This document shows, piece by piece, positions 17,316-20,949 of a stretch of DNA of 33,631 bases. Under the pieces are notes generated by a model. It did not search any database. It was not told the DNA's origin and saw only the letters and a program-made list of their open reading frames with translations. The position numbers and the translations under genes were made by a program. The DNA is from Candidatus Mediterraneibacter pullicola (lineage in GTDB: Bacteria > Bacillota > Clostridia > Lachnospirales > Lachnospiraceae). How positions within the stretch are numbered: the first letter of the stretch is position 1; each line of letters begins with the position of its first letter. The stretch is from NCBI GenBank assembly GCA_019117065.1, contig DXAK01000037.1:1-33631 (forward strand). The letters are read 5' to 3'.

Positions 17316-18095
17316 ATGAGATTTCGGCCATGTATCGATATACATAACGGCAAGGTAAAACAAATTATAGGCGGAAGCTTGCGAGACGAAGGGGATACTG
17401 CCCGCGCCAATTTTTCTTCTGAAAAAGGCGCTGCTTATTATGCAGAGCTCTATAAAAAAGATGGATTAAAAGGAGGGCACATTATTCTCTTAAACCATGC
17501 TGGCTCAGAGTTTTATGAGGAGACGCGGAAGCAGGCGTTTACAGCTCTGCGGGCTTATCCCGGTGGCATGCAGATCGGCGGGGGAATTACTGCGGAGAAT
17601 GCCGGGGAGTATCTCAAGGCTGGGGCAAGTCATGTGATTGTTACATCTTATGTGTTTTGCGGCGGCACGTTCTGCTGGGATAATTTGGAAAAACTGGTCT
17701 CAGTGGTAGAAAGAGAGAAGATTGTTCTCGATTTAAGCTGTCGAAAGAAAGGAGACGCTTATTACGTTGTGACAGACCGCTGGCAGAAATTTACGGATAT
17801 GCGGGTGGATCACGAGACGCTGGATCAGTTGACGGGATATTGTGATGAATTTCTGATTCACGGTGTCGATGTAGAGGGAAAGCGTTCCGGTATGGAAGAG
17901 GAGCTGGTACATATGCTGGGAGAGTGGAAGGATACCCGGCAGGACATTCCTGTAACATATGCAGGCGGGATCGGATCACTGGAGGATCTGGAGCGGTTTT
18001 GGCAGATCAGTGGGGGACGGCTGGACTTCACCATCGGGAGCGCACTGGATCTTTTCGGGGGAGAAGTCCCCTACGAGATGGTTATTCGTGTATAG
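17316..18095 (+). CDS. hisA: phosphoribosylformimino-5-aminoimidazole carboxamide ribotide isomerase, eukaryotic type
   Basis: 259 residues. The N-terminal RPCIDIHNGKVKQIIGGSL with Asp8, the phosphate-binding QIGGGITAENAGEYLKAGA, a central VLDLSCRKKGDAYYVVTDRW with the second acid, and the C-terminal VTYAGGIGSLEDLE form the HisA/HisF barrel pattern. The insertions and the RFRPCIDIHNGKVKQ start match the yeast HIS6/eukaryotic-type isomerase rather than classical bacterial HisA. It opens the ribose of ProFAR in histidine synthesis. It is a single gene here, not in a his operon, which is known for this subtype in Clostridia. ACAGGAGA precedes ATG 17316. Its TAG stop lies inside the first arm of the structured region that follows. 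Confidence 0.88.
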   Translation: MRFRPCIDIHNGKVKQIIGGSLRDEGDTARANFSSEKGAAYYAELYKKDGLKGGHIILLNHAGSEFYEETRKQAFTALRAYPGGMQIGGGITAENAGEYLKAGASHVIVTSYVFCGGTFCWDNLEKLVSVVEREKIVLDLSCRKKGDAYYVVTDRWQKFTDMRVDHETLDQLTGYCDEFLIHGVDVEGKRSGMEEELVHMLGEWKDTRQDIPVTYAGGIGSLEDLERFWQISGGRLDFTIGSALDLFGGEVPYEMVIRV

Positions 18096-18247
18096 TTCAG
18101 CGAGCGCCATTCGTAAAACCGCACTACGTGCTAACTGTGGCTGCCGCCACTGTTTTACTCATGAGCGGGCGCTCTTCCATCCATCTTCTCATTCTCGGCC
18201 TCATGCAAGCATGGTCTGCCTTCGTGTTTGATGGATGGCTGAACTGT
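18092..18247. ncRNA. candidate structured RNA or palindromic repeat (three-way junction)
   Basis: A ~156-nt segment is nearly all self-complementary. Closing stem: 18092-18101 with 18238-18247 (10 bp, one G-U). Arm one: GAGCGCC (18102-18108) with GGCGCTC (18168-18174), then GTAAAAC (18113-18119) with GTTTTAC (18152-18158), capped by two hairpins, GCAC/GTGC (18121-18131) and GTGGC/GCCAC (18137-18150). Arm two: CCATCCATC (18177-18185) with GATGGATGG (18230-18238), enclosing GGC/GCC (18197-18220) and CATG/CATG (18202-18213). No U run follows, so it is not a plain terminator, and it holds no convincing gene. It starts at the hisA stop codon and ends before the secA promoter. Strand is undecided because the pairing holds for both. 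I do not recognise a named RNA family. Confidence 0.6.
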
Positions 18248-18278
18248 TAAGGCAAAATGTTAACAACTTATGAATTGG

Positions 18279-18307
18279 TTGAATTACCCATCACTTAGTG
18301 TTACAAT
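18279..18307 (+). promoter_or_regulatory. secA promoter
   Basis: TTGAAT (18279-18284), 17-bp spacer, TACAAT (18302-18307) with TGT before it (extended -10). Predicts a leader of about 60 nt before secA. Confidence 0.75.
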
Positions 18308-18319
18308 GGAAACCGTGGT

Positions 18320-18343
18320 GGCGTCGGACTTTGCGCCGGCGCC
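18320..18343 (+). promoter_or_regulatory. 5'-leader hairpin of secA
   Basis: GGCGTCGG (18320-18327) pairs with CCGGCGCC (18336-18343), 8 bp with one G-U pair, just upstream of AAGGAG at 18354. It might stabilise the mRNA or control translation; no evidence for either. Confidence 0.45.
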
Positions 18344-18372
18344 AAATTTGTATAAGGAGTTAATTACGAGGT

Positions 18373-20949
18373 ATGGGTATTATAGAAAAAATCTTCGGCA
18401 CTCACAGTGAGAATGAGTTAAAACGGATCTATCCGATCGTGGATCGGATCGAGGCGCTGGGGCCGGAGATGAAAGCGCTGTCTGATGAGGAACTTAGAGG
18501 AAAGACGAGAGAGTTCAAGGATCGGTTAAGCGAAGGAGAGACTCTGGATGATATCCTTCCCGAGGCTTATGCCGTCGTGCGGGAGGCAGCGTTCCGAAGC
18601 ATCGGCATGCGTCATTACAGAGTGCAGATTATTGGCGGCATCATTCTTCATCAGGGACGCATCGCGGAGATGAAAACAGGAGAAGGTAAGACGCTGGTGT
18701 CCACACTTCCAGCCTACTTAAACGCGCTTGCGGGACAAGGCGTACACATCGTTACGGTAAATGACTATCTGGCGAAGCGTGACGCGGAATGGATGGGAAA
18801 AGTCCATGAGTTTCTCGGCCTGACAGTGGGCGTTGTTTTAAACAGCATGGACAGCAAGGAACGCCGCGCCGCATATGACTGTGATATCACCTACGTGACA
18901 AACAATGAGCTAGGATTTGACTACCTACGTGACAACATGGTTATCTATAAGGAGCAGCTCGTGCAGAGAGGGCTTCATTTCGCTATCATCGATGAGGTGG
19001 ACTCTGTTCTGATTGATGAGGCGAGAACACCACTCATTATTTCTGGGCAGAGCGGGAAATCGACAAAACTCTACGAGGCGTGCGACATCCTTGCCCGCCA
19101 GCTTGAGAGAGGCGAGGCGAGCGGAGAGTTCTCAAAGATGAACGCCATCATGGGTGAGGACATTGAGGAGACTGGAGATTTCATTGTAAATGAGAAAGAA
19201 AAAGCGATCAACCTGACAGAGGAGGGCGTGAAGAAGGTGGAGAATTTCTTCCACATTGACAATCTTGCCGATCCCGAGAATCTGGAGATCCAGCACAATA
19301 TCATCCTTGCGTTGCGGGCGCACAACCTGATGTTCAAGGATCAGGATTATGTGGTGACGCCGGAAGGCGAAGTTATGATCGTGGATGAGTTTACTGGCCG
19401 TATTATGCCGGGACGCCGTTATTCTGACGGACTTCATCAGGCGATCGAGGCGAAAGAGCACGTTAAGGTGCGCAGGGAGAGTAAGACTCTGGCGACGATT
19501 ACGTTCCAGAACCTGTTCAATAAGTTTGAGAAAAAAAGCGGCATGACGGGTACGGCTCTCACGGAGGAAAAAGAATTCCGCGATATTTACGGAATGGACG
19601 TTATTGAGATCCCGACCAACGTGCCGGTACAGAGGGTGGACCTCGAGGACGCTGTGTATAAGACAAAGAGAGAAAAATATAAAGCAGTTGTTGAGGAAGT
19701 CAAAAGAGCGCATGCCACGGGTCAGCCGGTCCTCGTAGGTACGATCACTATCGAGGTGTCTGAGCTTCTGAGCGGTATGCTGAAAAAAGAAGGTATTAAG
19801 CATAATGTCCTTAATGCAAAATATCATGAGCAGGAGGCTGCCATCGTTGCTGACGCCGGACTTCACGGCGCGGTCACGATCGCTACGAACATGGCGGGAC
19901 GTGGTACGGATATCAAGCTGGACGACGACGCCAGAGCAGCAGGCGGCTTGAAGATTATTGGTACGGAGAGGCATGAGTCCAGACGTATTGATAACCAGCT
20001 TCGTGGACGTTCCGGACGTCAGGGGGATCCGGGAGAATCGCGCTTCTACATTTCCCTTGAGGATGACTTGCTCAGACTATTCGGATCAGACCGTCTCATG
20101 GGTGTGTTCAACGCTCTCGGGGTAGCTGACGGCGAGCAGATTGAGCACAAGATGCTCTCCAATGCCATCGAGACAGCACAGAAAAAGCTGGAGATTAACA
20201 ACTTCGGAATCCGTAAAAATCTTCTCGAGTACGATCAGGTCATGAATGAGCAAAGAGAGATCATTTACGCGGAGAGACGCCGTGTGCTGGATGGAGAGAG
20301 CATGCGTGATACAGTTTACAACATGATCACGGAATATGTGGAGAATATAACAGACCGCTTTGCTTCGCCTGAGGCGGACGGGGAAAACTGGGATATTAAA
20401 GGACTGGACGTGAATCTCCATGCTGTGATCCCGCAGATGGAACTTCTGGACGAGGCAGAGTGCCGGAACATGCGCCAGAAGGAAATGAAGCACATGCTTA
20501 AAGAACGCGCTGTGAAAGCGTATGAGGCGAAAGAGGCAGAATTTGCGGAAGCAGAACAGATCCGTGAGATTGAGCGCGTGGTGCTTTTGAAAGTTATTGA
20601 TGCAAGATGGATGGATCACATCGATGATATGGATCAGCTTCGCCAAGGTATCGGGCTTCAGGCTTACGGACAGAGAGATCCGCTAGTAGAGTACAAGATG
20701 ACAGGATATAACATGTTCGGGGAGATGACGAACATGATCGCGGAGACCACGATCCGTACTCTGTTCAATATTCGTGTTGAGCAGAAGGTGGAGAGAGAAG
20801 AGGTGGCGAAAGTGACGGGCACAAACAAAGACGAGAGTGCTGTGCGCGCGCCGAAGAAACGGGAAGAAAAGAAGATCTATCCGAATGATCCGTGCCCGTG
20901 CGGAAGCGGAAAGAAGTACAAACAGTGCTGTGGCCGAAAGCAGCTATAA
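18373..20949 (+). CDS. secA: preprotein translocase ATPase SecA
   Basis: 858 residues, normal length. Walker A KTGEGKT (101-107), the DEAD-like [20 protein letters not shown] region, the [11 protein letters not shown] motif and the second nucleotide-binding half with [10 protein letters not shown] and the [17 protein letters not shown] motif are all present. The C-terminal zinc-binding SEC-C motif [13 protein letters not shown] (841-853) is intact, which in many SecA proteins helps bind SecB or phospholipid. SecA drives unfolded proteins through SecYEG at the membrane. AAGGAG is 13 nt upstream of ATG 18373, a longer spacing than usual. It is followed by prfB as in Bacillus. Confidence 0.98.

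Follow-up and report, generated by a model that had tools for sequence, protein, structure and literature searches.

A probable decayed MITE copy with IS66-type ends, and a fold that looks conserved as DNA, between hisA and secA of Candidatus Mediterraneibacter pullicola

Between hisA and secA of Candidatus Mediterraneibacter pullicola lies a short, densely paired stretch of DNA, and the question that it raises is whether such a sequence functions as an RNA or has another origin. The first-pass annotation of the window (the whole stretch of DNA analysed here, 33,631 nucleotides of contig DXAK01000037.1) put it forward as an unnamed structured RNA, and also considered a 3'-UTR element and a palindromic mobile repeat. 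Our analysis points to the mobile repeat, specifically to an old, immobile copy of a MITE (miniature inverted-repeat transposable element) with IS66-type ends that was mobilised in trans and in which the pairing is kept as DNA; we put the probability of this reading at roughly 0.87.

The three-way junction itself, claimed to be unlikely by chance, held up. RNA folding of positions 18092-18247 yields a junction of −62.9 kcal/mol (z = −5.45; none of 200 shuffled sequences equally stable), with a 10-pair closing stem, an arm with two terminal hairpins and an arm with an inner hairpin. Almost equally good folds are obtained from the reverse strand (z = −4.93) and from the plus strand taken as single-stranded DNA (z = −4.26). 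The extent originally given, 18092..18247, is that of the fold, whereas comparison with young copies in other genomes bounds the whole element at 18090..18250 (plus strand, 161 bp), a decayed copy of a MITE of ~164 bp that lies in the orientation of our covariance model R1 and is scored by it at 149.7 bits (E = 1.8 × 10−32). The supposed terminal inverted repeats are likewise genuine, reading GTAACAGTTCAGCC and GGCTGAACTGTTAC in young copies and worn in the window: the left one (18090..18102, plus strand) has decayed to GTATAGTTCAGCG, and the right one (18237..18250, plus strand) is almost intact as GGCTGAACTGTTAA. Arm 1 (18102..18174, plus strand), the arm with the better sequence conservation, is composed of a GAGCGCC/GGCGCTC stem, an inner AAAAC/GTTTT stem and two terminal hairpins. 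Arm 2 (18177..18238, plus strand), the last two bases of which fall inside the right terminal repeat, has a CCATCCAT/ATGGATGG stem and an inner hairpin around CATGCAAGCATG; its sequence varies among copies, yet is mostly paired.

The element does not simply follow hisA (17316..18095, plus strand; the name is that of the first-pass annotation, and the upstream genes of relatives match by tblastn). The hisA stop codon, TAG at 18093-18095, sits within the left terminal repeat, and the last two hisA codons (GTA TAG) are supplied by that repeat (18090..18102). Accordingly, the placement of the element between the hisA stop and the secA promoter is right at its downstream side, where a promoter-like site of secA (TTGAAT-17-TACAAT, 18279..18307, plus strand) follows just 3' of the element, but not at its upstream side. 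No convincing ORF was found in the window copy, as had been stated, the two listed ORFs across it (17924..18250 and 17959..18231) being only overlaps of the hisA 3' end in other frames. No Rfam family reached its gathering score anywhere in the window; at E ≤ 5, the sole match in 18000-18400 was a chance-level snoRNA outside the element, and a tRNA search found none.

Copies of the element are numerous and dispersed in the host genome, in its genus and in other genera, as became apparent from the covariance-model search that had been proposed as a check. In the host genome (2.25 Mb, 49 contigs), DNA search gave 26 hits at E ≤ 10 and 16 at E ≤ 10−3, several of which are parts of tandem copies. 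R1, built from eight copies, gave 18 matches at E ≤ 0.1, of which 14 were at E ≤ 10−10, and four shorter, internally deleted host copies (L016, L017, L018, L024) are known by their ends. Across the genus, 48 of 58 genomes, the host included, match R1 at E ≤ 10−3 (under stricter filters, with at most the best 52 candidates scored per genome). Among the other genera of the family, represented by one genome each with the best 10 candidates scored, 35 of 298 match at the same threshold (36 of 299 with the host), 28 of them at E ≤ 10−9 and seven weakly, with E above 10−9. At the level of the order, 10 of 295 genomes match at E ≤ 10−5, five of these in one further family. A plain DNA search of 41 relatives matched none of the 16 genomes outside the genus; thus, the sensitivity of the search matters. 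None of 72,556 plasmid records matched, and the 10 matches among 50,697 phage records all lie on fecal contigs that are titled 'Bacteriophage sp.' and carry no annotation, with less than 80% of the query covered in each. Full units also occur in tandem, end to end and ~160 bp apart, four of them at L153 (G052:C3) and three at L154 (G248:C56); those in G052 are joined by GTTAAC-like junctions.

The ends of young copies are those of a transposable element. Ten near-identical copies in one genome (G271) and four in another (G324) all have the ends GTAACAGTTCAGCC...GGCTGAACTGTTAC, and perfect 8-bp direct repeats lie outside the ends of 8 of the 10 and 3 of the 4, respectively. Among 49 end pairs found by script over the loci in hand (one L148 element being counted with two alternative partners), perfect 8-bp flanking duplications were present in 30, compared to 0.6 in shuffled pairings, and 7/8 duplications in five, compared to 0.4; no exact flanking repeat of 9 bp or more was present among the 49. 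The duplicated target sites are A+T-rich, and 39 of the 49 pairs span 162-167 bp. In three genomes, the forward/reverse counts of the pattern GTAACAGTTCAGCC were 25/24, 48/44 and 33/32, and the reversed control gave 0. Only two host copies pass the end test, L016 (62 bp, duplication 8/8) and L008 (0/8), so the host copies are mostly worn; the window copy itself lacks a target duplication, with 1/8 agreement between 18082-18089 and 18251-18258. Shortened forms carry duplications as well: end-to-end elements of 42-43 bp in G107 (8/8 in L166, L181 and L298, 7/8 in L300, 5/8 in L299), an 85-bp form with arm 2 only (8/8), a 100-bp form with arm 1 only (8/8) and a 136-137-bp form at three sites in G324 (all 8/8). 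If these forms moved as such and did not shrink in place, this speaks against a strict need of the fold for mobility. A short, gene-free sequence with terminal inverted repeats, a target duplication, dispersed copies and an IS that has the same ends is a MITE, and the mobile-repeat option of the first-pass annotation is in this respect confirmed by the copies, the 8-bp duplications and the matching IS elements.

The same observations bear on palindromes of another kind. If a Y1 (RAYT) transposase had moved the element as a REP/BIME-type palindrome, or if it belonged with BOX, bcr1 or the like, it would also be intergenic, palindromic and dispersed, and the tandem unit arrays in G052 and G248 are what might then be expected, but the 8-bp target duplications and the 14-bp IS66-type ends leave this explanation with next to no probability. 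Y1 elements are not known to make target duplications.

A candidate partner is present in the host's genus. The genome G017 contains an intact IS66-family element of 1820 bp with the ends GTAACAGTTCACCC and GGCTGAACTGTTAC, flanked by the duplication TTTTTTCG (8/8) and adjoined by a MITE copy. Its 485-aa transposase exceeds the cut-off of PF03050 (DDE_Tnp_IS66; E = 6 × 10−21), as do three relatives, and scores 145.6 bits with NCBIfam NF033517, below the cut-off of 180. The element has a single long ORF of the tnpC type; a second frame of 108 codons without an ATG is also listed. A scan of GTDB contigs gave 16 related IS loci, and Roseburia inulinivorans DSM 16841 and a Blautia MAG are among the sources. 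Five of the 16 (L220, which is the G017 element, L222, L223, L224 and L227) have the two ends together with 8/8 duplications, whereas L225 has a 7/8 duplication and poor ends, L221, L228, L232, L234 and L235 have end-like sequences and no duplication, and L226, L229, L230, L231 and L233 have one or both ends absent from the stretch examined. The single ORF, GTAAC-type ends and 8-bp duplication of the partner are those of the ISBst12 group, so that, judging from sequence, the candidate partners are IS66-family elements of ISBst12-like type, ~1.8 kb long with one transposase gene. At least nine contig ends in G271 run from MITE-type ends into IS-like sequence, which would be consistent with collapsed IS copies.

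Of 10 genomes searched for PF03050, 6 have the domain, with no match in the host genome or in G324, which has young copies, and a close transposase is present in one of the 58 genus genomes. Draft assemblies tend to drop repeated IS elements, which is an excuse for a missing transposase and no evidence of one. When five MITE copies were set against eight IS elements, little was found in common beyond the 14-bp ends: the other matches are no longer than 14 exact bases (the best, of one copy against one IS, having E = 0.007), and one MITE copy has a recurring match of 11-12 bases near the transposase start. The matches outside the ends are judged, rather than proven, to be due to chance. G371, G043 and G340 contain IS66 elements of a different type, which lack the matching ends and were rejected as partners. 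At L210 (G271:C32), a decayed IS66-type element with the same end lies beside an ORF that by eye reads like cas2.

We then come to the level at which the pairing is kept. The covariation set, drawn from a search of 100 loci, comprised 117 copies aligned to the model, of which 113 are distinct. Changes on both sides were observed in 45 of 53 pairs, in 942 cells compared to 260 in shuffles, and 93.7% of the cells are paired, compared to 26-48% when the two sides are slid against each other. Compensatory changes, which the first-pass annotation had singled out as decisive, are thus present, but they are strand-symmetric and hence give no support to an RNA. In a true RNA, G.U is tolerated on the sense strand and A.C is not. 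Here, G.U and A.C occupy 146 and 105 cells, respectively, across all pairs, and 93 and 104 without a single junction pair, 174-326, which is mostly U.G (53 cells) and RNA-like. The counts are 14 vs. 16 in the 19 young copies and 79 vs. 88 in the remaining ones; the model-fitted alignment credits G.U, a bias that opposes this near equality. Alignment of 97 MITE copies with MAFFT followed by RNAalifold gave 26 G.U vs. 45 A.C on 20 pairs, whereas the same procedure applied to 6S RNA as a control (30 RNAs, of 57 genomes with a match) gave 240 vs. 9 on 43 pairs. Only 20 pairs were recovered from the plain MAFFT alignment because arm 2 misaligns, and the 53-pair count therefore rests on the model-fitted alignment. 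With G.U not above A.C, unlike in 6S RNA, the pairing looks kept at the DNA level.

Relative to codirectional genes, 43 copies are sense and 34 antisense (p = 0.36); of the other copies of the 117, 17 lie between divergent and 1 between convergent genes, 8 overlap an ORF, 9 are at an edge and 5 were dropped as duplicates. A fold that works in the transcript, as part of a regulatory RNA or a riboswitch-like leader dispersed as a repeat, would account for the strong covariation, the low folding energy, the conserved unpaired bases and the position directly after hisA, where read-through transcription is probable. However, the G.U and A.C counts, the lack of a significant orientation bias, the absence of an Rfam match and the absence of the element between hisA and secA in 14 of 23 relatives (see below) make such an RNA very improbable, and the element is most likely not an RNA gene.

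DNA-level pairing could also arise without any selection on the fold, if the covariation were purely mutational and template switching perfected the hairpins. The conversion of imperfect hairpins into perfect ones by this mechanism is reported for RNA genes in the source cited (PMC8794818), and it would agree with the excess of Watson-Crick double changes over wobble intermediates and with their strand symmetry. Nevertheless, conservation reaches at least 90% in 11 of 46 unpaired columns, among them a TC/TC internal loop, and simple mutational homogenisation of the stems leaves this unexplained; the unpaired bases and the arm-1 sequence are conserved across genera, and most copies have arms of unchanged length, even if shortened ones also bear duplications. 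We regard a purely mutational cause as a real possibility, somewhat short of even odds.

The hisA-secA locus itself was compared across 30 secA loci, taken from 57 matches in the genus, of which 24, including the window, have hisA upstream. Among the 23 relatives with this arrangement, the full element is present in two (L264, L265) and a partial or altered one in seven (L238, L246, L251, L254, L257, L258, L263), with L257 and L263 scored as partial by judgement, having a different palindrome and a similar arm-2 loop; in the other 14, the site is empty of the element. A sequence resembling the TTGAAT-17-TACAAT site is found upstream of secA in relatives too. The other palindrome in the hisA-secA region of L257 and L263 is long and has a CATGCAAGCATG loop, and the R1 match in L257 is weak (E = 0.0029).

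A former MITE might by now have a role in the his/secA region: it could, for instance, terminate or stabilise the his operon transcript, or keep this transcript apart from the secA promoter. The element supplies the hisA stop codon, 9 of the 23 relatives have a full or partial copy at this site, and 49 of 95 copies are no more than 60 nt away from the 3' end of a gene, a figure that is without a background control. Yet the 14 relatives without the element still have the promoter region, and the terminator-like match inside the element (18137-18150) is weak, with a small region-wide excess of such matches (2 found vs. 0.6 expected). We consider such a role improbable. A separate hairpin at 18319-18344 falls in the secA 5' leader, downstream of the promoter and ahead of the start codon. 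Its 5-pair stem covaries with G.U 29 vs. A.C 2 (30 relatives, 27 of them with sequence at this place), and it is missing in three relatives (L260-L262); given this RNA-like pattern, it is a candidate secA leader element.

Returning to the reading of the element as an old MITE copy, an IS66-family transposase (ISBst12-like, single gene) would act in trans on the 14-bp ends GTAACAGTTCAGCC/GGCTGAACTGTTAC and place the element into A+T-rich DNA, leaving an 8-bp target duplication. The interior would be a separate palindromic cargo, without recognisable descent from the IS, which may fold as single-stranded DNA such that the closing stem of the three-way junction joins both ends. Its pairs would be kept by hairpin-templated correction at replication, by selection on the folded DNA, or by both, with no role for an RNA product. 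The window copy would have inserted at the end of hisA, given the gene its last codons and later lost its target duplication, and it is presumably inert today. A more far-reaching proposal, which we deem unlikely, is that the folded single-stranded junction with its conserved unpaired bases is a module recognised by a protein, of the host or the transposase itself, in replication or transposition, that, carried by IS66-type ends, it has spread through two bacterial families or more, and that it is kept by selection on DNA pairing.

The family is a new one of MITEs with IS66 (ISBst12-like) ends, ordinary in kind and unusual in its conserved DNA fold; no published description of MITEs with IS66-type ends was found in the literature searched. 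It accounts for strongly folded intergenic sequences in gut-type Clostridia that would pass covariation tests and risk being filed as new RNAs, and it ties a transposase of the IS66 type to a large group of small passenger elements. The comparison of G.U with A.C, which tells DNA-level from RNA-level pairing, could be used on other candidate RNAs.

Among known systems, ISDge4 of Deinococcus geothermalis, a member of the ISBst12 group, is described as having a single transposase gene between the ends GTGACTACTCAGCA/GTAACTGCTCAGCA and as making an 8-bp duplication (PMC12898284). The partner IS resembles it in that one PF03050 gene lies between GTAACAGTTCAGCC-type ends and the duplication is of 8 bp, whereas the window element is gene-free and has an interior that cannot be recognised as IS sequence. 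The Cardinium element MITECca01, which derives from an IS of the IS982 family, is presented by its source as short and gene-free, with terminal repeats shared with the IS, mostly intergenic copies and a short IS-derived sequence retained beside its end, and as reported in one strain only (PMC9769881). Like MITECca01, the family of the window element is short, gene-free and multi-copy, with ends common to an autonomous IS; in contrast to it, the interior forms a covarying three-way junction that many genera have kept. The bcr1 repeat of the Bacillus cereus group is characterised as a dispersed mobile repeat with many copies per genome, the mobility of which is tied to a TTTAT motif (PMC6542083). 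The present elements are of similar size and likewise dispersed in many copies per genome, but their ends are of the IS66 type and their 8-bp duplications vary in sequence. A conserved fold, as RNA or DNA, is also a feature of bcr1. BOX, REP/BIME and NEMIS/Correia repeats are intergenic and palindromic, and some are modular; the ends and duplications of the elements studied here point to IS66.
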